This document shows, in pieces, positions 8,914 through 21,169 of a stretch of DNA of 62,337 nucleotides (positions are counted from its first letter, which is position 1; the number at the start of each line of letters is the position of its first letter). The DNA lies in IMG/VR virus record IMGVR_UViG_3300027985_000790, positions 1 to 62,337 of that record; one strand, 5' to 3'. A program made the translations under genes and the position numbers. Below the pieces are notes generated by a model. That model was not told the origin of the DNA, ran no database searches, and worked only from the letters and a program-made list of their open reading frames with translations. The stretch comes from a virus.

Positions 8914-8928
8914 TGATAATGATTATCA
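8914..8928. promoter_or_regulatory. Perfect Fur-box-like palindrome
   Basis: The sequence TGATAATGATTATCA is a perfect 7-1-7 inverted repeat and matches the known Fur operator core of enterobacteria and pseudomonads. It stands at the edge of the repeat array, whose units share the half-site ATTATCA. Whether host Fur or a phage protein binds here is not known. Confidence 0.5.
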
Positions 8929-8946
8929 TTTAGGGGTCCCCGAAAC

Positions 8947-9360
8947 GCGACTCATTATCATCCGCACCCGCAACTGCGAATGATTATCAGTACCCGATGC
9001 AACCGCGAATGATTATCACCTCGCCCTTGACTGCGAATCATTATCAGTCGCCCATGCAAACGAGACGCATTCGCAGACGCATCACCTAATGCGAATCATT
9101 ATCAGTCAACCTCGGAACGCGAATCATTATCAGGTGCAATAGGTGACGCGACTCATTATCAGTCAACCTCGGAACGCGAACCGTTCTCATTCGCATTGTG
9201 GCAAAAGGACAACGCGACTAGGTCTCATATGCACGGAAGGTGATATGCGAACAGGTCTCATTTGCGGGTGATAATCGGTCGCATATGAGGTGCAGGTGAT
9301 ATGCGAATGAGTATCAATTGGGTTGTTATGATGGGACAGTGCAAATGCGACTCATAATCA
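8947..9360. repeat. Array of about 12 copies of GCGANTNATTATCA
   Basis: Copies start at 8947, 8976, 9005, 9033, 9091, 9119, 9148, 9176, 9214, 9247, 9303 and 9347. The first eight are spaced 29, 29, 28, 58, 28, 29 and 28 bases apart, so they share a ~29-bp period; a degenerate copy fills the gap at 9062. Early copies are near identical (GCGAATGATTATCA, GCGACTCATTATCA or GCGAATCATTATCA), while later copies diverge. The stretch ATCAGTCAACCTCGG between units also repeats exactly at a 58-bp distance. The regular period suggests cooperative protein binding on one DNA face. Confidence 0.85.
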
Positions 9361-9655
9361 TTTGCAGTTGGAAATCGGGCGCGGGCAGGACGGCAGCAGT
9401 TGTTTTGCGTCTCGTTCGCATTACACATGCATGTGAACGCAATCGCTTTAACCTATTGCATCACGAATAGCGTATCCTGTTTTCCTATCCGTGTATAAAT
9501 AAAAACCGCATCTGCAACCACAAACATTCTGTCGTAACCCATTGTTCTGTAACCTAAAACAACTCCTTGATTATCACCGTTTATGACCATGTGTGGTTTA
9601 TTCTTATATGCCTAAACCAATGAAAACACTAACAAATTCATGATTATATAAATAA

Positions 9656-11275: not shown

Positions 11276-11301
11276 TTTTCAAAAACCCCGAGCGACATTT
11301 T
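11276..11301. repeat. TTTTCAAAA-CCCCGAGCGACATTT repeat, copy 1
   Basis: Near-identical to the tandem pair at 16641-16697. Here it overlaps the 3' end of the gene 11279-11593 and encodes its last residues (NVARGF) and stop. It always lies at the downstream end of a leftward gene. Confidence 0.75.
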
Positions 11302-11593
11302 GCTCAAGCCGCTCAATGGCCCACTCAACGAACTGCATCCTCAGCGGGTTGGCCCAGAAGCCACCTTCCTGGTGTGCATCACGGCAGTAGCCAGCACAGT
11401 GGCCATTGATGAACCAGGAGGGATTGAACACCACACCTCGCTCCTTGCACCACTGCTCGGCCAGTACAAGCATCTCCCACTCGGCCCAGAGGCCTGCCGT
11501 AAACTCCACATTGAAGCAGATTGCTTCATCCGGGAACAGCGGCCCCTCGTTCTTTATCAGCCGTAGCGCCTGTAGCAAACTCATGCAAGCCAT
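11279..11593 (-). CDS. Paralogous 'IKxHGP / LHFAID' family protein A
   Basis: About 104 residues. It has the family's N-terminal motif (ALRLIKNEGPLFPDEAICFNV) and C-terminal motif (FWANPLRMQFVEWAIERL). The ATG at 11593 follows GGAGGG; an alternative ATG at 11584 overlaps the upstream stop. It is the most diverged member and the last gene of the leftward run 13179-11279. The function of the family is unknown; see the separate finding. Confidence 0.75.
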   Translation of the reverse strand: MACMSLLQALRLIKNEGPLFPDEAICFNVEFTAGLWAEWEMLVLAEQWCKERGVVFNPSWFINGHCAGYCRDAHQEGGFWANPLRMQFVEWAIERLEQNVARGF

Positions 11594-11892
11594 GCGAGCA
11601 CCCTCCGGAAGAAGGTTTGTTCACGCAGCAGGCACTTGGCTACATGACGAGCAAGGTCCCGCCGAAGGTCGCCATACTCACCTTCATACAAGGTGAAGTG
11701 TTCCCAGTAAGCGTCTGCCCCACCAGGCACTGGGAAGGTTTTGCTTCCTGAGAAGAACTCCCACGACTGAGAATGCTCCTTCACTTCTTTCTTAGCTCCC
11801 GCATTGCAGCAGATGCCCACAATATCGGAAAACCCGGGAATGTAGCGCTCCCGCCCGTAGGCAATGAGAAGCAGTTTCGTTACCTTGTTCAT
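11581..11892 (-). CDS. Paralogous 'YEGEYGxLRRDLA' family protein G
   Basis: A 103-residue member of the second branch of the paralogous family. Landmarks are GICCNAG, SWEFFSGSKTFPVPGG and LYEGEYGDLRRDLARH. The close spacing of a GIC motif, a W-E-x-x-SG segment and a P-V-P turn is shared with 18921-19235 and both halves of 19235-19858. The start follows GGGGGT. Function is unknown. Confidence 0.8.
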   Translation of the reverse strand: MNKVTKLLLIAYGRERYIPGFSDIVGICCNAGAKKEVKEHSQSWEFFSGSKTFPVPGGADAYWEHFTLYEGEYGDLRRDLARHVAKCLLREQTFFRRVLAWLA

Positions 11893-12224
11893 TCGACCCC
11901 CAAGTCATCTTCGAGCCACGCGATAGCCCAGTGTAGGAAGGACAGCCTTACCGGGTTGCTCCAGAAGGTGCCGCTTGCTTTCTCGTCCTCCCACTCCTTC
12001 CACCCGCCAACCCAGAAGGCAGGGCAGTATTCACGTCCTGTCCTCGTGGCCCACTCCTTAGACAGGTAACGAAGAGCATCCGAAACGGCACGCGCCTCCC
12101 ACGGGTCGTTAACGTGGTTGATGGCACCTAATGCAACGTTGCCACACAGGGCTTGCTTCTTGTTCTCAGGGCCGTGCCGCTTGATACGCAGCAGCACGTC
12201 CAGGAGCTTCCGCTTGCTACTCAT
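11889..12224 (-). CDS. Paralogous 'IKxHGP / LHFAID' family protein B
   Basis: A 111-residue member: VLLRIKRHGPENKKQALCGN at the N-terminus and FWSNPVRLSFLHWAIAWLED at the C-terminus, with a Trp-rich middle. The ribosome site GAGGAGG precedes the ATG, and it overlaps the neighbouring genes by a few bases, so translation is probably coupled. Confidence 0.8.
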   Translation of the reverse strand: MSSKRKLLDVLLRIKRHGPENKKQALCGNVALGAINHVNDPWEARAVSDALRYLSKEWATRTGREYCPAFWVGGWKEWEDEKASGTFWSNPVRLSFLHWAIAWLEDDLGVE

Positions 12225-12414
12225 CGTCGTCCTCCTCGTTGCTCGGCAGGCCGCCGTTTTCCGCGGCGTCGACCAGTTGGTATGCCATGTCCACGAGACG
12301 CATCATGGCTTCCTGTTCTTCGGGTGACAAGCTGCAGCCGTTGTCAATGGCCTGCAGGCAGTCCTGGAAGTCGCGTGCCGTATTCTGAAAGCGGCAGTAG
12401 CTCATGTTACTCAT
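12217..12414 (-). CDS. MSYCRF-type small conserved protein
   Basis: A 65-residue protein beginning MSNMSYCRFQNTARDFQDC and ending in an Asp/Glu run. Short proteins starting MSYCRF(E/Q)NT.xDLxDC recur in phages and proteobacteria, with no known function. The ATG at 12414 follows GAGGAA; the second Met (12405) is possible. It sits inside the paralog operon. Confidence 0.8.
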   Translation of the reverse strand: MSNMSYCRFQNTARDFQDCLQAIDNGCSLSPEEQEAMMRLVDMAYQLVDAAENGGLPSNEEDDDE

Positions 12415-12748
12415 AGCAGTATTCCTCAAGGTAGTCAATAGCAAAGTGCAGGAAGTCGAGGCGGACAGGATTGCTCCAGAAGGTTTCGTCTTCCAGCTCC
12501 TTGTCCCAGGCTTCTTCACCTTCGAGCCAGTAGTAGTGAGTGAACTTCTGCCCGCGGTCGTAGCACCAGACCTCACCAATGCTGCTGAGGAGGTTCTCAA
12601 GGATCTGGCTCTCAAACAGTTCCATCTCCTCCCCACGAAGCACGCGGTTGGCGTGCATCATGTTGGAGCACAAAGCATGGCATGAACGAGTAGGCCCGTG
12701 GCGCTTTATCTCGTTCAGCGCGTTAAGCAGCAGTTGATGTTTAAACAT
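12407..12748 (-). CDS. Paralogous 'IKxHGP / LHFAID' family protein C
   Basis: A 113-residue member: LNEIKRHGPTRSCHALCSN near the start and FWSNPVRLDFLHFAIDYLEE at the end. AGGAGA precedes the ATG, which itself lies inside a GTTTAAACATG junction, so a GTTTAAAC site overlaps the start codon. Confidence 0.8.
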   Translation of the reverse strand: MFKHQLLLNALNEIKRHGPTRSCHALCSNMMHANRVLRGEEMELFESQILENLLSSIGEVWCYDRGQKFTHYYWLEGEEAWDKELEDETFWSNPVRLDFLHFAIDYLEEYCYE

Positions 12749-12758
12749 GATCTTTCTC

Positions 12759-12989
12759 CTATTCTGCCAGCTCAGGCCAGCCTTTGGTGGTCGGATCAAT
12801 GGGCAAGCCAAGCTGCTCCACGAGTTCATCGTAGTCGGGAGAAACTTCCTCCCAGGTATCGGCATCAGCGAACAGTTCACGGCCACTGGCATCCTTACCA
12901 CAGTAGCGGACTAGGTCCCCGTACTGCGGTTGTCCATCAAAGTCCAGTATCATGCAGCAGTACATGCCACCTTTTACGAGCTTATCCAT
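12759..12989 (-). CDS. Small acidic protein, unknown
   Basis: A 76-residue protein (MDKLVKGGMYCCMILDFDGQ, ending PTTKGWPELAE) with a likely beta-barrel-like N-terminal half and acidic residues throughout. GAGGACG precedes the ATG, which overlaps the upstream stop. No family is recognised. Confidence 0.7.
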   Translation of the reverse strand: MDKLVKGGMYCCMILDFDGQPQYGDLVRYCGKDASGRELFADADTWEEVSPDYDELVEQLGLPIDPTTKGWPELAE

Positions 12990-13179
12990 GGTTCACGTCC
13001 TCACCAAAACGTGCTTGGACGGAGAAGAACAGCTCCTCTGCCACTTGGGCTCTCAGACCATCTGTAACATCTTCAAGATCAGATTCGGGTGCTTCCTTCA
13101 TTATCTCGTGAGCACGAAGCATTATCTCATCTGTCAGCATGCTGACGTACTGGCTTACTATCTCGTTGTAGCGGCTCAT
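12982..13179 (-). CDS. Small helical protein, first gene of the 13.2-kb operon
   Basis: A 65-residue protein (MSRYNEIVSQYVSMLTDEIM), helical and acidic in the middle. AGGAGGTGTGCT is an excellent ribosome site, and a TTGCAG-N16-TATAAT promoter lies 40 bases upstream, so this leads an eight-gene leftward operon ending at 11279. Function is unknown. Confidence 0.75.
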   Translation of the reverse strand: MSRYNEIVSQYVSMLTDEIMLRAHEIMKEAPESDLEDVTDGLRAQVAEELFFSVQARFGEDVNHG

Positions 13180-13218
13180 AGCACACCTCCTACTGGTGCA
13201 ATTAATTGGTACAATTTA

Positions 13219-13246
13219 ATTATAATACCTGCCGCCAGCCCTGCAA
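13219..13246 (-). promoter_or_regulatory. Promoter TTGCAG-N16-TATAAT
   Basis: Minus-strand sigma70-like boxes in front of the operon 13179-11279. The same layout, always with a 16-base spacer and a TTG(C/T)A-type -35 box, occurs at 16173, 16449, 21811 and 23802. Confidence 0.7.
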
Positions 13247-13258
13247 CTTTATTTGCGT

Positions 13259-13621
13259 TTAAACGGGAAAATCCAGCTCCTCGGTCAAGGCGTCGATGGC
13301 GAAGTGAAGGAAGTCGAGACGCAGCGGGTTGCTCCAGAAGCGCCTAAAGCACAGCTCTACCTTCCAGGTTGTGTGCCCGTTGATGAAGTAGCCTCGATTG
13401 TACCAAAGCAGGTGCTGCCCTGTGCGCTGCTTGTACCATGCAGCACCCAGCTCCTGGAGCACAGCGCCAACCTCCCTTGACGTAGCCGAGGAACAGAACA
13501 AGCCGCCACCTGCTACCTGAGCAGTATTGGAGCACAGCGCCCACTCCTTGTCGAATGGCCCGTGCTGCTTAATGTGAACCAAACCCTTCAGCACGGCCAG
13601 CTTAACCATGTACTTGTCCAT
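13259..13621 (-). CDS. Paralogous 'IKxHGP / LHFAID' family protein D
   Basis: A 120-residue member: LVHIKQHGPFDKEWALCSN and FWSNPLRLDFLHFAIDALTE. GGAGAG precedes the ATG at 13621. The stop codon lies within a GTTTAAAC site (13257-13264). Upstream is a Fur-like palindrome, so it may be separately controlled. Confidence 0.8.
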   Translation of the reverse strand: MDKYMVKLAVLKGLVHIKQHGPFDKEWALCSNTAQVAGGGLFCSSATSREVGAVLQELGAAWYKQRTGQHLLWYNRGYFINGHTTWKVELCFRRFWSNPLRLDFLHFAIDALTEELDFPV

Positions 13622-13634
13622 CTCGCTCTCCAGT

Positions 13635-13649
13635 TGATAATGATTCTCA
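13635..13649. promoter_or_regulatory. Fur-box-like palindrome TGATAATGATTCTCA
   Basis: Fourteen of 15 positions match the perfect site at 8914. It lies just upstream of gene 13259-13621. The rest of the gap 13650-13789 holds a 9-bp inverted repeat (13686-13694 with 13736-13744) and two copies of CCCCAGTAT 16 bp apart. Confidence 0.4.
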
Positions 13650-13789
13650 TTTGCGCACCGCACAGTTCGCAGCACGCTGACGTTCTAGAACGCCGTCCCC
13701 ACGCTTGTATGCCTTACCCCTGCCCGTCCTTAGCGGGCGTTCTACGCGGTTTGGCTATACCCCACCCCAGTATACAGATACCCCAGTAT

Positions 13790-14038
13790 CTACGACACTC
13801 GGAAGGGGTAGGGGTTCCTGACTTCGCTGACATCAGCCGGCTCAAAAGGCGAACCCCAATCGTCTATCGTCTGAGTGTTGTGCGGGATGGCCAGGGCGTG
13901 AACACAAACCGAACGGGTGAGCAGAATAGGCTTGCCACAGCAAGGTGTAGCCACCCGTGCGGCGTTGCCATAGGTCTCTACGTTCCTCCAAGTATAGGCA
14001 GGCAGCTCAACTTCCTTCTCGCAGTATGGGCACTTCAT
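13790..14038 (-). CDS. Small zinc-ribbon-like protein
   Basis: An 82-residue protein starting MKCPYCEKEVELP with a second Cys pair (TPCCGKPILL) about 30 residues on, consistent with one zinc-binding finger. GGAGAAG precedes the ATG, which overlaps the upstream stop (ATGA). It is the last gene of the run from 16133. Role unknown; possibly nucleic-acid binding. Confidence 0.7.
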   Translation of the reverse strand: MKCPYCEKEVELPAYTWRNVETYGNAARVATPCCGKPILLTRSVCVHALAIPHNTQTIDDWGSPFEPADVSEVRNPYPFRVS

Positions 14039-14475
14039 TGCTTCTTCTCCTCTATCTGGATGCCGCGCTCGATGGACCAGATGGCCTCCTTGAGGTCTTG
14101 GATGAGGTCCTTGTTGTTGTCACCACGGTTGCCCGGCTGCAGCAGCTTCTTGAGCGCGTGCTGAACACCTGGATTCCGGATGTCCCAAGCATCAAGCAGG
14201 TCGTAGACGTCTATCCACACACCAGGTGCTACTTGCCGGTGATACTTGCTCCGCTTCGTGTCGGCTTCGCCTTCCATGAAGAGGTCTAGTTCGTGCTCCC
14301 CGGACGCGCTCCACTTACCATCGACATACCAGCCGAAGGTGCCCTCTTTGCCGGCTACAGTTCCACGTAGTATGGCACTTTTACCAACTTCAGTAGACAG
14401 GATTTTGATGCCTCTCCCGTCTCGCGTCACAACAGGGGCTCCTTTCAAGGCTGCCGCAAGGTCAAAAGGTTTCAT
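14035..14475 (-). CDS. MKPFDL-family paralog 1
   Basis: A 146-residue protein whose first ~25 residues (MKPFDLAAALKGAPVVTRDG) match those of the next two genes upstream. A WYVDGKWSASGEHELDLFM strand region follows, and the C-terminal half is unique and helical. Similar N-terminal modules (FDLExAxxGxPVxTRDGR) are widespread in phage and bacterial small proteins of unknown role. Confidence 0.8.
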   Translation of the reverse strand: MKPFDLAAALKGAPVVTRDGRGIKILSTEVGKSAILRGTVAGKEGTFGWYVDGKWSASGEHELDLFMEGEADTKRSKYHRQVAPGVWIDVYDLLDAWDIRNPGVQHALKKLLQPGNRGDNNKDLIQDLKEAIWSIERGIQIEEKKQ

Positions 14476-14852
14476 CGTCCTATCCCCGCGTGCTTGGCGT
14501 GCTCGAGCAGCGACTCCAGCTGCTCAACCTGTGCCTGGTGAATGATGCTCAGAATCCGGGCAAAGCCAATCTTGCCTTGCATCGGGTGAGCTTTGGCAGC
14601 ATCCGTTATCGCTTTACCCAAAGCCAGCGTCGCTTCGTACAGCGCATCTTCACTGCTACCTACCATGAAGAGCTGCAATTCTGAGCCGCCAGTGCTCCCA
14701 CCTGCCGGGCTCCACTGACGCCCCAAAATGCTCCCTTCCACGTATCCCACTATCATGCCATCTTCTTTAGCAGCTAGGTTGAAGACACGGCGGCCGTCTC
14801 GTGTGACAACGTGTTCCCCAGCCAAGGCTGCCGCAAGGTCGAAGGGCTTCAT
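14472..14852 (-). CDS. MKPFDL-family paralog 2
   Basis: A 126-residue protein: MKPFDLAAALAGEHVVTRDG, then a beta-rich region ending GSELQLFM, then a helical tail. The ATG at 14852 overlaps the previous stop (GTATGA), so coupling is likely. Function is unknown. Confidence 0.8.
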   Translation of the reverse strand: MKPFDLAAALAGEHVVTRDGRRVFNLAAKEDGMIVGYVEGSILGRQWSPAGGSTGGSELQLFMVGSSEDALYEATLALGKAITDAAKAHPMQGKIGFARILSIIHQAQVEQLESLLEHAKHAGIGR

Positions 14853-15196
14853 ACCGCACCCCACGCATTCTGGCGCACCTTGTCACGCACCACGTCCACG
14901 ATCTCGGACGCCAGGCTGTCAGCACCTCGGCAGTCGGCAGCGGCCGTAGCCAGGATCTGCTTGACCAAGCTTTCCACAGCATCGTTCAGCGTGTCCGCCA
15001 TAAAAAGGTTGTACCCTATGGACACTGAGTCGACACCGCCGAAGCTTCCATCCAGGTGCCACCCACTGCGGTGATTATTCTCGCCGATATAGCCGACGAG
15101 CAGCGAGCCTTTTTGCTGCAGGCAGGTCACCTTCCGGCCATCCCGGGTAGTGACAGCGGCCCCAGCCAGGGCCGCCTCGAGGTCAAAAGGTTTCAT
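14849..15196 (-). CDS. MKPFDL-family paralog 3
   Basis: A 115-residue protein: MKPFDLEAALAGAAVTTRDG, then GYIGENNHRSGWHLDGSFGG and YNLFMAD, then a helical tail. GGAGGAGATGTG precedes the ATG at 15196. The three paralogs are tandem and share a strand-rich N-terminal module but not their tails, which suggests duplication followed by tail divergence. Confidence 0.8.
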   Translation of the reverse strand: MKPFDLEAALAGAAVTTRDGRKVTCLQQKGSLLVGYIGENNHRSGWHLDGSFGGVDSVSIGYNLFMADTLNDAVESLVKQILATAAADCRGADSLASEIVDVVRDKVRQNAWGAV

Positions 15197-15384
15197 CACA
15201 TCTCCTCCCGCTTGATCTTGAGAACGTCGGCGTAGATGCACTCTGCCATCACGGCTTGGGATTGAGTTGCATCTGTCTGCATCCGCAGCACCATCTGGTC
15301 ACGGTGCTGCTCGCAGATCATCACCTGGAAGAAGCTGCCACCGAAGGTGAGGTTGTAGACAACCAGAATCACTTGCAGTTCCAT
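15196..15384 (-). CDS. Small protein, unknown
   Basis: A 62-residue protein with a hydrophobic N-terminal half (MELQVILVVYNLTFGGSFFQ) and an amphipathic helical C-terminal half. GGGGAG precedes the ATG. It may associate with the membrane, but the hydrophobic run is short. It overlaps its neighbour by one base. Confidence 0.65.
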   Translation of the reverse strand: MELQVILVVYNLTFGGSFFQVMICEQHRDQMVLRMQTDATQSQAVMAECIYADVLKIKREEM

Positions 15385-15386
15385 GG

Positions 15387-16133
15387 CTACTCCCCCTTGG
15401 TCTTGTGCGGCACAGGAGCGTCCAGGCCTTCCGGCAGGACCAGGTAATACACCGGATAGGTGTACTCGTCGCTGTAGCCATTAGCTATGGCGTAGTCTCG
15501 CAGGACCAGGTGCTGCTCGATGGTGAAGTCGTCCGGGTGCTGGCTACCTACTTCCTCAATCAGGGGGCAGCCTTGGATAGCATCCAGGAAGTCTTGGGCG
15601 GTATCGAACGAGCAGGCAACCCACAGTTCGTAGCCGCACTTCCACTCAGTGCGCACACCGTAGCCCTTCTGGCGCATATCCCAGTAGCAGGCGGAGCGGA
15701 TGGATGCATCGTCCCAGGGCTGGCCGTCCTTCTTGATGCAGACCCGGCGGAGGTCGTCAATGGTTGCACCTGCAAACAGGAAGTCGATGATCTGTGCTTG
15801 CTTGCTGTTGGCACGAGCGGGGTAAGCGCGTTCATCAGCGGGGCAAGAGATGGAGCCTTTGCGGCGACCAGCGGTCTTTTCAGCGGTAGCCGGCTTGGCG
15901 GCCTTCTTAGCCTTACGCATAAAGACGACGGCGTGGTTGGCAACGTGTACTTGGTCGGCTTCGCTCAGCTCACCTTCCACCATGTCCAGGTAGACGACTA
16001 CTTGGAAGCGGTCATCGCCGTCCACCTTTACAGCTTCAATTTCGAAGTGGTCGAAAGCAGTAGCGGCGGACAAGCGGTCGGTATCACGTTCAGCGGCACG
16101 CTTGGCGGACTTGGTGTTGTTGTAAGTGGTCAT
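15387..16133 (-). CDS. Unknown protein with a winged-helix-like segment
   Basis: A 248-residue protein. The N-terminal ~80 residues are strand/helix mixed and acidic; a basic linker (KKAAKPATAEKTAGRRKGS) follows. Residues ~105-160 (KQAQIIDFLFAGATIDDLRR, then RSACYWDMRQKGYGVRTEW) look like a helix-turn-helix or winged helix of the kind found in phage genes. AGGAGACG precedes the ATG, and a promoter lies just upstream, so it leads the run down to 13790. It may be a regulator; this is inference. Confidence 0.7.
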   Translation of the reverse strand: MTTYNNTKSAKRAAERDTDRLSAATAFDHFEIEAVKVDGDDRFQVVVYLDMVEGELSEADQVHVANHAVVFMRKAKKAAKPATAEKTAGRRKGSISCPADERAYPARANSKQAQIIDFLFAGATIDDLRRVCIKKDGQPWDDASIRSACYWDMRQKGYGVRTEWKCGYELWVACSFDTAQDFLDAIQGCPLIEEVGSQHPDDFTIEQHLVLRDYAIANGYSDEYTYPVYYLVLPEGLDAPVPHKTKGE

Positions 16134-16172
16134 GATACGTCTCCTATTGACGTTGTTTGTTGGTACAATTTA

Positions 16173-16200
16173 ATTATGAATGATAACTGCCTTATTACAA
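16173..16200 (-). promoter_or_regulatory. Promoter TTGTAA-N16-CATAAT
   Basis: Minus-strand boxes 40 bases upstream of 16133, with the same 16-base spacing as its sister promoters. Confidence 0.6.
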
Positions 16201-16218
16201 CTTAGATTGCGAAAAATT

Positions 16219-16410
16219 TTAACCTCGCCTTTCGAGGACGTCCAGCAACTCCCATTGCTCCTCCTCCAGGCCGTTTATCTCCTGAGTAAGGTCGTAGAAT
16301 TCCTTGGGCAGGTCGTCAACGTCAAACTTGCGGTTGAACTCAACCTGGCGAGCATACAAGCCGGGCAGGGCTTTAACAATGTCACGAAGACGAGTAGCAT
16401 AGTTGTTCAC
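16219..16410 (-). CDS. Small acidic helical protein (GTG start)
   Basis: A 63-residue protein (NNYATRLRDIVKALPGLYAR, ending WELLDVLERRG), helical and likely coiled. The GTG at 16410 is preferred because AGGAGGTGCACC stands immediately upstream; the upstream in-frame ATG has no such site. A promoter with TTGCAA-N16-AATAAT precedes it. Function is unknown. Confidence 0.7.
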   Translation of the reverse strand: MNNYATRLRDIVKALPGLYARQVEFNRKFDVDDLPKEFYDLTQEINGLEEEQWELLDVLERRG

Positions 16411-16448
16411 GGTGCACCTCCTACTGGCGCGGTTCGTTCTACACATTT

Positions 16449-16476
16449 ATTATTGACGCTGCTAGCCGCCTTGCAA
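16449..16476 (-). promoter_or_regulatory. Promoter TTGCAA-N16-AATAAT
   Basis: Minus-strand boxes upstream of the GTG-start gene at 16410. The ATAACCGCTT motif lies about 95 bases further upstream (16572-16581). Confidence 0.55.
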
Positions 16477-16600
16477 CCTTATTTTGTTGATCTAGGTCAA
16501 AATCCTAATCATTTATAAACCACCTGCTTTGATGCGTTATATTGATAGTGAAGACAAGCGCTGCTCATTTGATAACCGCTTGCATTTGCAGATGATTCTT

Positions 16601-16633
16601 ATTCTCATTTGAGAATGATTCTCATTTGAGAAT
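16601..16633. repeat. Tandem ATTCTCATTTGAGAAT palindromes
   Basis: Two exact 16-bp palindromes in tandem with a one-base gap. Their junction forms a perfect 7-1-7 inverted repeat TGAGAATGATTCTCA (16610-16624), a variant of the Fur-like site at 8914. The layout suggests cooperative binding of dimers. It lies in the gap 16477-16697, which has no gene. Confidence 0.75.
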
Positions 16634-16640
16634 ACGTCTA

Positions 16641-16697
16641 ATTTTCAAAATCCCCGAGCGACATTTCCGTGATTTTCAAAATCCCCGAGCGACATTT
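16641..16697. repeat. Tandem TTTTCAAAA-CCCCGAGCGACATTT repeats, copies 2 and 3
   Basis: Copies at 16641-16666 and 16672-16697, immediately downstream of the stop of gene 16698-17090. A third copy overlaps the end of another leftward gene at 11276. There is no T-run, so this is not a standard terminator; function unknown. Confidence 0.75.
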
Positions 16698-17090
16698 TTA
16701 CAGATCGTAAACCAGACGCTTTATTTCTCGCACCAGATGTGCTTGGCCATAGGTCAGTATTTCGCTGTCGTCGTACTTGCCGCCTAATTTAATTCGCTTA
16801 CCTGCCGCCGCCCAGCCGTCTATTACGGCATGTAAGGCTTCGTGGTAAACCATTTCCTCGTCGTACTCGTCCAGAAGAAACAACACTATTGGGTGGTCAA
16901 ATTCCTCTACCATATCGCAGCCAGTCATCGCACCGCCGTCTGCCAGATGCTTAGAAATGGTGGCACCTGCTGCTTCCAGCTTGGCTAAGTTGCTGCAGGT
17001 GCTTCTGCAGGCCTCCAGAAACATGGGCAGCTCGCTCTCAACCACTACAGGTATCTTAAGGTCCAGCGGTTGCATAGTGATGGTAATCAT
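16698..17090 (-). CDS. HEALH-motif protein, possible zinc metallopeptidase
   Basis: A 130-residue protein with HEALH at about residues 83-87 (EMVYHEALHAVIDGW), the pattern of zincin active sites. No clear third zinc ligand is identified, and the protein is very short, so it may be a minimal or inactive zincin fold. The ATG at 17090 is preferred: it overlaps the upstream stop and follows GGGGGT. Neighbours are unknown proteins. Confidence 0.65.
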   Translation of the reverse strand: MITITMQPLDLKIPVVVESELPMFLEACRSTCSNLAKLEAAGATISKHLADGGAMTGCDMVEEFDHPIVLFLLDEYDEEMVYHEALHAVIDGWAAAGKRIKLGGKYDDSEILTYGQAHLVREIKRLVYDL

Positions 17091-17359
17091 ACTCGTACCC
17101 CCGCGAATGAGTTTACCCACACCTTACCCATCCCCTCAAGCTGTTCTGGACACTGGCAGAACCGCTGAGAGTTGAACTTCTTACCGTTTAAACGGATGTT
17201 AAATTCATGCCCCAAAGGAACTCGTGAGAACGTGGTCAGGGTAACAAGGAACTCAGGCTTGTGCGAGTGGAATCTACCTTCGAGCCAAAGCAGCTCCACG
17301 TCGTCGGGAAGGTCTACCTTAAGGGTGACGCCCGCGAATTTTACCTTATGCGTCCGCAT
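17087..17359 (-). CDS. Small protein, unknown
   Basis: A 90-residue beta-rich protein (MRTHKVKFAGVTLKVDLPDD). AGAGGAG precedes the ATG. A GTTTAAAC site lies in its coding region (17186-17193), encoding part of NIRLNGK. No family is recognised. Confidence 0.7.
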   Translation of the reverse strand: MRTHKVKFAGVTLKVDLPDDVELLWLEGRFHSHKPEFLVTLTTFSRVPLGHEFNIRLNGKKFNSQRFCQCPEQLEGMGKVWVNSFAGVRV

Positions 17360-17687
17360 AGTCCAACTCCTCTGTCAGCTTGTCGATGGCGAAGTGCAGC
17401 AGATCCAGCCGCATGGGGTTCGACCACAACGTCCTGCTGTCCATGGCAGTTTCAAACTCATCTTCACCTTCCACAGGATACCACTCATCGCCCGAGTGGT
17501 GGGGCCAGTCGGAAAACAAAACTCCCAGGTATGAGTAGCAGAGCTTAGCAGTTTCAGAACCTTCAGGTAAGCTGGCTTTGGCGTGGTCGCAGATACCATA
17601 GTAGACAGTATTATCTTTACCGTCTTGGTTCCCGTGCTTCTTTATCCGGATGAGAGCTTCCAGGATTTCGTGCTTAATGCTCAGCAT
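17346..17687 (-). CDS. Paralogous 'IKxHGP / LHFAID' family protein E
   Basis: A 113-residue member: ALIRIKKHGNQDGK, YYGICDHAK, then DWPHHSGDEWYPVEGEDE and LWSNPMRLDLLHFAIDKL. It carries both the LHFAID end and the GIC plus SGxxxYPV centre, so it links the two branches of the paralog family. GAGGAGC precedes the ATG. Confidence 0.8.
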   Translation of the reverse strand: MLSIKHEILEALIRIKKHGNQDGKDNTVYYGICDHAKASLPEGSETAKLCYSYLGVLFSDWPHHSGDEWYPVEGEDEFETAMDSRTLWSNPMRLDLLHFAIDKLTEELDYADA

Positions 17688-17973
17688 AGTCCAGCTCCTC
17701 GGTCAAGGTGTCAATCATGTAGTGGAGCAGATGCAGCCGGTCGCAGCAGCTCCAAGGTTCCAGCTCGTCGCCCTCCACGGGGAAGTAGTCATCACCCGTG
17801 AAGTGCTCCCAGCTGCGGTACAAGTCAACCAGCACCCGCTGGAAGGCATTAAGGCCCTGTCTACGGATGTGTGGTGGCATCAAGTACAGTACATTGTGGC
17901 AGATGCCATCTGCTCTAAGCAGCGGGCCTTCCCGCTTGATGCGGAGCAGGGCTTCTAGCACCAGGCGCTTCAC
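17674..17973 (-). CDS. Paralogous 'IKxHGP / LHFAID' family protein F (GTG start)
   Basis: A 99-residue member: ALLRIKREGPLLRADGICHN, then WEHFTGDDYFPVEGDE and RLHLLHYMIDTLTEELDY. The start is GTG overlapping the upstream stop (GTGA), with only a weak GGGTGG site, so translation is probably coupled. Like protein E it holds features of both branches. Confidence 0.75.
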   Translation of the reverse strand: MKRLVLEALLRIKREGPLLRADGICHNVLYLMPPHIRRQGLNAFQRVLVDLYRSWEHFTGDDYFPVEGDELEPWSCCDRLHLLHYMIDTLTEELDYAEH

Positions 17974-18455
17974 TTTACCACCCGCATAGGCGCAACGTAG
18001 CGGAAGACATCCACTTGCTCGCCAAAATCCACCACGTAAGGGTAGCGGGACTTCATCTCCGTGCCAACATATACGCCTACCTTACCTGTGTTGCCGTCCA
18101 TCCAGCACTGAGAGTCGTCCAGCGGCAACGCAATGACCTTCTCACCCCACCACATCTCCCGCATGGGCAGCACGATTAGTGCATCCTGCTTTTCAAGGTC
18201 TACATGGATCCGCTTGCTGTTGGCTGCCATCACGGCGGGCCCTTCTTTGACTACGCGGTACAGCTCGTGGTCAATAAGAAGTATGTCGCCCAGAGCCAGC
18301 TCCATGCTGTGCAGCGGTATGTAGTAGACGCACTCCCGCTTATAGTCAAGAGTGCCGCCGTACTTCTCAGCCTGCTCCTGCATCTGTGCTTGGACGCCTT
18401 GAGCACGTCCCAGCATGTAAAGAGCGGTGAGTATCTGGCTGGTAATCAGTTGCAT
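17970..18455 (-). CDS. Unknown 161-residue protein
   Basis: Starts MQLITSQILTALYMLGRAQG (helical), followed by a beta-rich centre (YYIPLHSMELALGDILLID) and a C-terminal half with WW and several Met. GAGGAGTAG precedes the ATG. No motif recognised. It sits in a tightly overlapping run with the paralog family genes. Confidence 0.7.
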   Translation of the reverse strand: MQLITSQILTALYMLGRAQGVQAQMQEQAEKYGGTLDYKRECVYYIPLHSMELALGDILLIDHELYRVVKEGPAVMAANSKRIHVDLEKQDALIVLPMREMWWGEKVIALPLDDSQCWMDGNTGKVGVYVGTEMKSRYPYVVDFGEQVDVFRYVAPMRVVK

Positions 18456-18458
18456 GAT

Positions 18459-18713
18459 CTACTCCTCGTATTCCGCGGCAGCAGCAATCTGCGCCATGAA
18501 GTCAACCTTGGCGAACTCCAAGGCACCTACTGCCAGGATAGGCTGGTTGAAGTTGGCCGCACAAGACGAGCAGGTCCTATCCGTGCCCAGAACCACGACC
18601 ACCATGTTAGCAATCAAGCCATCCGCTTCTTGCTGAGCAAGCTGCTCAATCAGTTCCTTAACACCTTCGCCTGATTCCTGCTTGCCGAATTCTACTTGCC
18701 GAATACCCATCAT
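18459..18713 (-). CDS. Small protein with CSSC motif, unknown
   Basis: An 84-residue protein (MMGIRQVEFGKQESGEG). The centre holds MVVVVLGTDRTCSSCAANF, with Cys spaced CxxC. The ATG at 18713 overlaps the upstream stop and follows AGGAGCAGA. The CxxC could bind metal or be redox active; this is not supported further. Confidence 0.65.
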   Translation of the reverse strand: MMGIRQVEFGKQESGEGVKELIEQLAQQEADGLIANMVVVVLGTDRTCSSCAANFNQPILAVGALEFAKVDFMAQIAAAAEYEE

Positions 18714-18928
18714 TCTGCTCCTGTCCACTCGTCCAATTCCTTCACCAGCATCTTAGCCAGTGCTCTCTTGGACAACACTTGAGAGTGCAGCGCGTATCCA
18801 GTCAGCTGCCGCAGCAGCGACGAGCCAAACGGGGCAGCGCTGTCAGCTGCTTCAATTATCCCTACGCCAGAACGGCCTTGTGCTATCTCTTGCACAGCGT
18901 CCCGCACAGCTCGGATTCGCTCATCCAT
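18710..18928 (-). CDS. Small helical protein, unknown
   Basis: A 72-residue protein (MDERIRAVRDAVQEIAQGRS), helical, ending DEWTGAE. GGAGGATGAGCG precedes the ATG. It overlaps both neighbours by a few bases, as expected for a member of a coupled operon. Confidence 0.7.
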   Translation of the reverse strand: MDERIRAVRDAVQEIAQGRSGVGIIEAADSAAPFGSSLLRQLTGYALHSQVLSKRALAKMLVKELDEWTGAE

Positions 18929-19235
18929 CGCTCATCCTCCATTCTTCCATTCGCCGTGCCATGTGTCCTGCCAGCTCTCGGCGCTTCTCACCATACTCTC
19001 CCACGTAGAGGTTAGGCGTGGCCATGTACCAAGCTCCTGGATGTCCGCCGTCCGGAGACGGAATGGGAAACTGGTTGTCACCTGAGAAGTGCTCCCAGGT
19101 CTCCCACAAGTACGGACCGGTCCTTACACCGAATCCACTGAGGTAGTAACACAATCCAAAACCTGGGTGAGCAGGCGTCACCCCAGCAGCCACGTCCTTA
19201 AGGAAGGTGATGGCCCCTATTATGTTGCGAGACAT
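18921..19235 (-). CDS. Paralogous 'YEGEYGxLRRDLA' family protein H
   Basis: A 104-residue member: GFGLCYYLSG, WEHFSGDNQFPIPSPDGG, then LYVGEYGEKRRELAGH. The ATG at 19235 is chosen because CGGGAGGA is seven bases upstream; a nearer ATG at 19241 abuts the ribosome site. It directly follows the double-domain protein 19235-19858. Confidence 0.8.
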   Translation of the reverse strand: MSRNIIGAITFLKDVAAGVTPAHPGFGLCYYLSGFGVRTGPYLWETWEHFSGDNQFPIPSPDGGHPGAWYMATPNLYVGEYGEKRRELAGHMARRMEEWRMSDG

Positions 19236-19858
19236 TACCATTCCTCCCGATGCTTGAGCAAGTGGAAAGCCAGGTCCCGGCGCAGCATGCCATACTTGCC
19301 TTCGTAGAAAGTCTTGCTCTGCCACGCGGCGTTCCAGCGTTCACCCGGACTTCCGCCTTCCGGATCGGGTATCGGGTAGGCCCAATTCCCCGTGAAGAAT
19401 TCCCAGCTTCTAGCGACATCAAACAGATCCACGTACTTACCGCACAGTTCCAGCGCGTAGCAGAGGGCGTTCCGAGGCGTCCTGATGCCCAGAGCAATGT
19501 CCAGCAGCAGCTCCAGCTGGTCCCGCTTTACGCCGGAGAAGCCTTCCAGTACGAAGGAATATTGCTCCTTGAGCTCTTCCTGGCGCAGCTTCTTGTAGAG
19601 GAAGTAGGCCAGGTCTCGGCGAAGCATACCGTACTTGCCTTCGTAGAGGTTGTTCAAGACCTGGTAGATAATGTTAGGTCCGCCGCCCTCCGGGTCCGGC
19701 ACGGGATAGTGAGTACTACCGGAATAGAACTCCCACTCACGAAACCAGCGTCTAAGCGACAGTTTCTTAATGCCACTTCTATTGACGTGGAAGCAGAGGC
19801 CTGCATTAGCCCGCTGCGGCACGAAACCCCTGGCGATACGATAGAGGATGTTAGTCAT
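19235..19858 (-). CDS. Paralogous family protein I with two tandem domains
   Basis: A 207-residue protein that carries the ~100-residue unit twice. Copy 1 has WEFYSGSTHYPVPDPEGGGP and LYEGKYGMLRRDLAYFL; copy 2 has WEFFTGNWAYPIPDPEGGSP and FYEGKYGMLRRDLAFHLL. Such an internal duplication fits a recent tandem fusion of two family genes. AGGAG precedes the ATG. No enzyme motif is visible; the conserved W, SG and PxPDPEGG segments suggest a small structured domain. Confidence 0.85.
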   Translation of the reverse strand: MTNILYRIARGFVPQRANAGLCFHVNRSGIKKLSLRRWFREWEFYSGSTHYPVPDPEGGGPNIIYQVLNNLYEGKYGMLRRDLAYFLYKKLRQEELKEQYSFVLEGFSGVKRDQLELLLDIALGIRTPRNALCYALELCGKYVDLFDVARSWEFFTGNWAYPIPDPEGGSPGERWNAAWQSKTFYEGKYGMLRRDLAFHLLKHREEW

Positions 19859-20132: not shown

Positions 20133-20741
20133 TTACTTGGGTGTCGGCAGCTTGAGCAGGCGGTTCAGGTCTGCCACGTTGAGGGCGGGCAGCTGCTTCT
20201 TGACTTCTTCCTTGGGCAGCAGCTCGGCAGCTTCCGGCCATTCTTTGAGCAGGCGCTCAACCGTGGTGAAGGAAGAGGTGCTGGCCATTACCGTATCGTA
20301 GACGTCCCGCTGCTGAGCCTTGAGCTCCTGAATCTTGTTGATACTTGCTTCCCAGATGCTGAACAAAGGAGAGCCCACATCCACCGGAAGATAGTGGTCG
20401 CAGAACAAGCGGACATCATCGTCCGACGAAGGAACACGGCGGACATCGTCCCACCCAATATCGCCGGTAGTGAGGTGGACGTAATGGTAGTTACCTTGGA
20501 TCTTCAGCTGGACGTAGCGGTTCGGCTGGGGGAACGAAACCATCATACTACCAGGGAGCTTCTTGTTAAGAGCACTCATGGTTTTGTGGATGCCCATGAG
20601 TTCGTCGTAGTTGGCTACTTTGTAAGTGCTTACAACGCACTCAGCCAGCTGCTTCTTGATGGCTACAATGGTGTCTCCCAGCTTGAGGTTCCGTACCGCC
20701 TGGGCGGCCATGTGCTCACGGGTTCTTTTCAGCAGTTTCAT
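20133..20741 (-). CDS. Nmad5-like protein (nucleotide modification associated), tentative
   Basis: A 202-residue protein starting MKLLKRTREHMAAQAVRN, with an all-helical N-terminal half and ending TTVERLLKEWPEAAELLP. This overall layout and the closing WPEaaeLLP pattern resemble phage Nmad5 proteins (nucleotide modification associated domain 5), which co-occur with modified phage DNA. If correct, it fits the 7-deazaguanine system 10 kb away, but no biochemical role is known. AGGAGACG precedes the ATG at 20741. Confidence 0.4.
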   Translation of the reverse strand: MKLLKRTREHMAAQAVRNLKLGDTIVAIKKQLAECVVSTYKVANYDELMGIHKTMSALNKKLPGSMMVSFPQPNRYVQLKIQGNYHYVHLTTGDIGWDDVRRVPSSDDDVRLFCDHYLPVDVGSPLFSIWEASINKIQELKAQQRDVYDTVMASTSSFTTVERLLKEWPEAAELLPKEEVKKQLPALNVADLNRLLKLPTPK

Positions 20742-21169
20742 TCTGCGTCTCCTAAGATTTTGGAGTTTCCAGGTATGCGGTACTCGAATACAAAGCACTC
20801 GAGATCGTCCGCAGTGTAGAAGCGTTTGCCTTCGTTGCCATTCTGCGGGTCATAGAGAATTGGGTTTCCCACCCGGCGGTAGTCAAACAGAACGTAGTGC
20901 AGGTACCGCTCCAGGTTCAGAGACGGAACAGCGCCCAGGTAGACATTGCCCCATTCTGCATACTGGTCCTTGACGCCCAAGCAGAAGAAGTCCTTGCCTT
21001 CTTCAAAGCCCGAGACTTCCAGGTAATCGTGCACTTCCACCTTGTGGGCGAAGTAAAGGTTGTGGAACTCGTCTATCACCTCCTGAACCGGACGGCCCAG
21101 GAGCATGGCCAGACTGGTGCTCACACAGGTATCCTGAGTGGGCTGCTGCTGCTGAATGAAGGTTCTCAT
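20738..21169 (-). CDS. Putative C39-like papain-fold peptidase
   Basis: A 143-residue protein whose start QQQPTQDTCVSTSLAMLLG matches the Q-x2-C motif of C39-type peptidases (Cys15, Gln12). A matching histidine is His91 in YLHYVLFDY, and the third residue is likely Asp107 in ILYDPQNG. A short C39-like fold in a phage could act as a protease or protease-derived domain; no partner is visible. It overlaps 20133-20741 and 21166-21393 by a few bases. Confidence 0.65.
   Translation of the reverse strand: MRTFIQQQQPTQDTCVSTSLAMLLGRPVQEVIDEFHNLYFAHKVEVHDYLEVSGFEEGKDFFCLGVKDQYAEWGNVYLGAVPSLNLERYLHYVLFDYRRVGNPILYDPQNGNEGKRFYTADDLECFVFEYRIPGNSKILGDAE

Follow-up and report, generated by a model that had tools for sequence, protein, structure and literature searches.

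The closest parallel to the gene arrays described here, in way of working and not by any shown relationship, is found in the AcrID1 families of rudiviruses, in which a single virus carries many diverged paralogs that are expressed early and have a common upstream regulatory sequence, an anti-defence role having been demonstrated for some of them (PMC11065993). The AcrID1 families differ in that they belong to archaeal viruses and no sequence relation to the present family was found; AcrID1 was also absent among the PDB sequence and fold matches of the family. A second point of reference is the early region of T4-type phages, where early promoters stand ahead of novel ORFs (PMC1524935). The stretch from rII to motA in T4 is the same genomic slot that the large Thanatos and PspYZU05 arrays occupy, although T4 itself has no member. 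PHROG entries contain pieces of the family but file them separately, with the shared domain and the arrays unannotated. No Pfam or NCBIfam model matches the members, our literature search found no paper describing the family, and the Thanatos publications that we searched leave the paralogs unmentioned.

The window, that is, the whole 62,337-base virus record, comes from a Nanhaivirus-like siphovirus. Its portal, terminase, ribonucleotide reductase and head-morphogenesis genes match those of Nanhaivirus phages, portal identity to Pseudanabaena Pan1 and Dinoroseobacter R5C is 51–52%, and gene order is similar; the family genes lie in a small-gene region beside the terminase and replication genes. 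The initial annotation had proposed nine paralogous genes between 11279 and 19858 with ten copies of one domain. All nine ORFs were found, on the minus strand, most of them preceded by an AGGAG-like ribosome site, and when the entire record was searched by profile, exactly ten domains of about 100 aa were recovered (Table 1). The proposed duplication within gene I is real, since its halves are 48% identical over 90 residues. Pan1 and R5C, the nearest named relatives, have no family member. Members are likewise missing from two metagenomic relatives whose terminases are 49% identical, both of them partial records. Because the relatives examined have none, the family looks like a gain in the window lineage.

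Table 1. Family genes of the window; the higher coordinate is the likely start of each gene (for gene I, that of I1), and HMM values refer to the external HMM.
Gene	Coordinates	Strand	Branch	Length and start	Overlaps	Sequence features and matches
A	11279..11593	-	1	104 aa	B	ICFN...FWANPLRMQFVEWAIE; HMM 1.5e-4
B	11581..11892	-	2	103 aa	A, C	GICCN...SWEFFSGSKTFPV...LYEGEYGDLRRDLA; phrog_8153 2.6e-9; HMM 5e-15
C	11889..12224	-	1	111 aa	B	phrog_6323 2.7e-4; HMM 0.0021; BLASTP to D 3e-18
D	12407..12748	-	1	113 aa from ATG, preferred over upstream GTG (longer ORF to 12901)		BLASTP to C and E; HMM 1.4e-5
E	13259..13621	-	1	120 aa from ATG		phrog_2176 6.8e-4; HMM only 0.025
F	17346..17687	-	bridge to both	113 aa	G	HSGDEWYPVEG and LWSNPMRLDLLHFAID
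G	17674..17973	-	bridge to both	99 aa from GTG	F	HMM 5e-11; BLASTP to F 3e-15, H 1.5e-4, I2 8e-4, B 1e-3
H	18921..19235	-	2	104 aa from ATG	I	phrog_8153 2e-11; HMM 8e-17
I2 (C-terminal unit of I)	19235..19543	-			H	two HMM domains in one ORF
I1 (N-terminal unit of I)	19544..19858	-				BLASTP to I2 1e-15

All copies share a common ancestry, and the two branches are homologous. All-against-all BLASTP grouped A, C, D, E, F and G (pairwise E-values mostly 1e-6 to 1e-18) and, separately, B, H, I1 and I2 (1e-9 to 1e-16), the second cluster being joined to the first by G. An external HMM, built from 69 members with none from the window, was run against 443 ORFs; its top nine hits were exactly the nine genes (2e-30 to 0.025, E being the weakest), the next-best ORF scored 0.46, and the best score among shuffled members (500 shuffles each) was 6.4 bits. 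An HMM from Thanatos and PspYZU05 alone placed I, H, F, B, G and D below 1e-3 and gave C, E and A no significant score, so the case for these three depends on how clearly they resemble D and F. The homology of the branches, which the initial annotation had asserted, is thus supported by the BLASTP bridge through G and by the external HMM's match to all nine ORFs, and the expansion that it described is supported as well. That annotation would have yielded to an HMM showing unrelated branches or to a known function in another family; one HMM matches both branches, and all eight PHROGs matched are function-less.

Some details of the initial annotation needed revision. Of the two proteins proposed as intermediates, F is one and E is not; G takes its place, and Acinetobacter phage ZZ1 and one metagenomic phage supply further links. 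The metagenomic copies read MWNPEHPYGALRLELLDFMIE, which falls between FWSNPxRLxFLHFAID and LYEGEYGxLRRDLA, and judged by their letters the two end motifs are variants of one. The central SG-x3-(F/Y)PV motif, ascribed to the whole family, is present in B, F, G, H, I1 and I2; A, C, D and E show it in degenerate form. A quick tree set the window branches apart, with the split starred, which suggests separate origins from two incoming lineages; the AU test did not reject a single window clade (p 0.445), so separate origins are not required and the ten copies may instead have arisen by local expansion.

The family extends well beyond the window. One Thanatos member used as a tblastn query returned 60 phage records, and iterated profiles connected Straboviridae, Autographiviridae, Acinetobacter Saclayvirus, Kafunavirus, Menderavirus, Shewanella phage KASIA and uncultivated phages. 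Counts per whole record were 31 copies in Thanatos-1, 26 in PspYZU05, 23 in Thanatos-2, 10 in the window, 8 in Milchi, 4 in a 47-kb metagenomic phage and 1 to 3 in others. Window members and their relatives match eight PHROGs (8153, 28830, 13228, 12785, 6323, 2176, 9486 and 38172) at 1e-20 to 1e-3, and these eight are apparently parts of a single superfamily. Profiles detected no member in T4, T7, T5, LUZ19 or phiKMV, IMG/VR scans with single proteins and branch 1 found no relative, and a plasmid search gave a single weak match, in Sphingobium. Two scans with narrow patterns returned no member from 84,980 bacterial and archaeal genomes; given that narrowness, prophage copies may still exist there. 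Separately, an uncultivated 49-kb phage (L025, 3798–9775) has one member beside RNA-ligase-like and rIIA-like genes, as identified by eye.

In Thanatos-1 and -2 (TH1_130-165) and in PspYZU05 (188-206), genes with the same domain stand in tandem, head to tail. These arrays differ from the window island in their longer proteins, variable N-terminal parts, far higher copy number and T4-type early promoters. The main Thanatos array starts immediately behind rIIB and extends to motA, and that of PspYZU05 stretches from an adenine methyltransferase (rIIA/dam side) to motA/asiA, with additional copies near the record ends. Autographiviridae single copies lie at the left genome end, before the primase, and the KASIA copy lies within a T5-like 6.9-kb terminal repeat; the left end and the terminal repeat are where early genes sit in T7-like and T5-like phages. 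The VmeM-32 copy adjoins neck genes, which is not a typical early region.

The promoters of the two large arrays follow the same pattern. The T4 early promoter element is GTTTAC at -36 to -31 (PMC1524935). When gaps of 50 nt or more were scored for TTTAC-N15-20-TANNNT, the pattern occurred in 12 of 14 gaps in Thanatos-1 (0.30 expected) and in 7 of 7 in PspYZU05 (0.14 expected), and several array promoters were near-identical between cassettes. As a further observation, the early promoters of both arrays are embedded in palindromes (AAGGCATCGTATTTTGATATGATGCCTTTG; L010 15486–36485 for Thanatos-1, L012 6753–18400 for PspYZU05), and therefore one element may serve both as promoter and as hairpin or terminator.

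Comparison of the sister phages demonstrated turnover of individual cassettes. Most cassettes and neighbours are common to Thanatos-1 and -2 at 95–100% identity; Thanatos-2 lacks orthologs of six cassettes (TH1_143, 146, 151, 152, 153 and 155), and others are replaced in it by alleles of 47–72% identity, among them TH1_150, 158, 159 and 160 at 47–69%. Identical promoter spacers at cassette borders would act as the recombination sites.

In the relatives, the early location of the genes, the early promoters ahead of them and the turnover of cassettes fit a role in host takeover or counter-defence. This is the likeliest role, and we give about even credence to the proposal that the family is an early-made repertoire of this kind in many unrelated lytic phages. 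Proteins directed at variable host targets would be expected to be expressed early, to exist as many diverged copies and to be gained and lost quickly. Direct protein binding is the likeliest and simplest mechanism, put forward tentatively: the copies would share a scaffold held by the conserved GIC, W, SG, YPV and R positions, and their variable surfaces would attach to distinct host or defence proteins and block them as infection begins. Copy number would therefore follow the number of targets or of target variants. A more specific proposal, which we hold with some reserve, is that of a recombining cassette array under early promoters, an exchangeable repertoire in which each cassette would encode a different counter-defence or takeover protein and one phage could carry up to about 30 inhibitors. 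The superfamily behind it would extend across phages, would have gone unrecognised until now and would possess a small helical fold of its own. Anti-host factors, as the initial annotation suggested, are a candidate role that fits the same features of the relatives; its suggestion of defence-evading decoys received no specific support. DNA mimicry was considered and dropped, as the net charges of Thanatos members span -15 to +11.

Conserved residues and fold bear on a different explanation, that the proteins are ligand-binding sponges or small enzymes. The conserved positions of the superfamily are GIC, W, SG, (Y/F)PV and R. Neither C nor R varies in an alignment of 33 sequences with a mean column identity of about 20%, and W and G are kept in at least 90% of them; in H these residues are C29, R85, W47 and G52. 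Because Cys and Arg never vary, the copies could share a catalytic Cys/Arg site or take up a single type of small molecule, such as a nucleotide used in defence signalling, each copy taking a different variant; the near-invariant C, R, W and G, which could mark such a common ligand or active site, weaken the view of a bare scaffold. These residues may, however, merely pack the core, and no enzyme or sponge family was matched by sequence or fold; we regard this explanation as unlikely. Structure prediction, proposed in the initial annotation as a check, gave confident all-helical AlphaFold models for H (33 sequences; pLDDT 95.2, pTM 0.87) and F (29 sequences; pLDDT 89.6, pTM 0.84). The named BFVD matches of both models were uncharacterised phage proteins, many of them members by sequence, including those of PspYZU05, ZZ1 and Aeromonas 65.2. 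A PDB sequence search had no significant hit, its best being a dynein assembly factor at E 0.09, a Foldseek search of PDB folds gave no match (best E 7), and a VIA fold search reached Z 3.2 for H and 4.3 for F, within the range of common helical arrangements, the top matches being lentiviral capsid and Cmr5. The predicted fold is therefore confident and without a solved relative among these searches, which does not by itself prove a new fold. None of the 33 members matched a PADLOC anti-phage defence profile.

The presence and absence of cassettes between sister phages, together with the early position close to the rII genes, would also suit superinfection exclusion or inter-phage competition, in which each copy would block a different rival phage and not a host defence; known exclusion domains were unmatched, and we consider this improbable. 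Mostly non-adaptive proliferation, in which a recombination-prone gene duplicates and diverges with little benefit, would be favoured by the near-identical intergenic promoter cassettes, which would promote unequal recombination. Against it, dN/dS of the aligned Thanatos orthologs is below 1 wherever defined, indicating that the array genes are maintained; reading frames stay open even in extremely divergent copies, and the family is spread across many phage groups. In the copies common to Thanatos-1 and -2, pN/pS is 0.37, compared with 0.16 in flanking genes, and their average dN/dS shows constraint, not positive selection. Proliferation of this kind is thus decidedly doubtful. That the proteins are virion or internal head proteins injected along with the DNA is very improbable: mass spectrometry of purified Thanatos virions and lysates yielded many hypothetical proteins (PMC7530303), among which array members may lie, but the arrays are preceded by T4-type early and not late promoters.

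If the arrays are counter-defence repertoires, as in the preferred reading, one profile opens dozens of candidate anti-defence proteins in cultured phages (Thanatos, PspYZU05), and the pair Thanatos-1 and -2 becomes a natural experiment on which cassettes matter, by host. Eight phage families without assigned function would also be united in a single family whose fold is predicted.

For the window itself, early expression of the copies may be expected by analogy with the relatives. GTTTAC promoters are absent from the island, where sigma-70-like sites are no more frequent than chance predicts; the T4-type early gene class is not claimed for the window phage, which does not belong to the T4-like phages. 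At least a dozen Fur-box-like palindromes (GATAATGATTATCATT, GAGAATGATTCTCATT, GCGACTGATTCTCATTCGCGCACC) were noted, with sites at 8915–9366, 10226, 10382, 11177, 13636–13651, 16611 and 57715, and one form gave 11 matches against 0.15 expected. They cluster densely upstream of the terminase operon and recur at several intergenic sites of the island, that at 13636–13651 directly upstream of gene E. Candidate readings are iron-box mimics, a phage operator or origin repeats.

Three tandem paralogs of a different small family, with the motif MKPFDLxAALxGxxVVTRDGR, occupy 14035–15241 on the minus strand; at least the second matches phrog_9552, and the same family occurs in locus L011 alongside one member of the main family. 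Adjoining the island on the same strand, 20133–20798 encodes a Nucleotide modification associated domain 5 (PF18757, 5.6e-18). The protein of the minus-strand gene at 20738–21169, which starts QPTQDTCVSTSLAML and matches the function-less phrog_4049, resembles by eye a C39-type cysteine peptidase.
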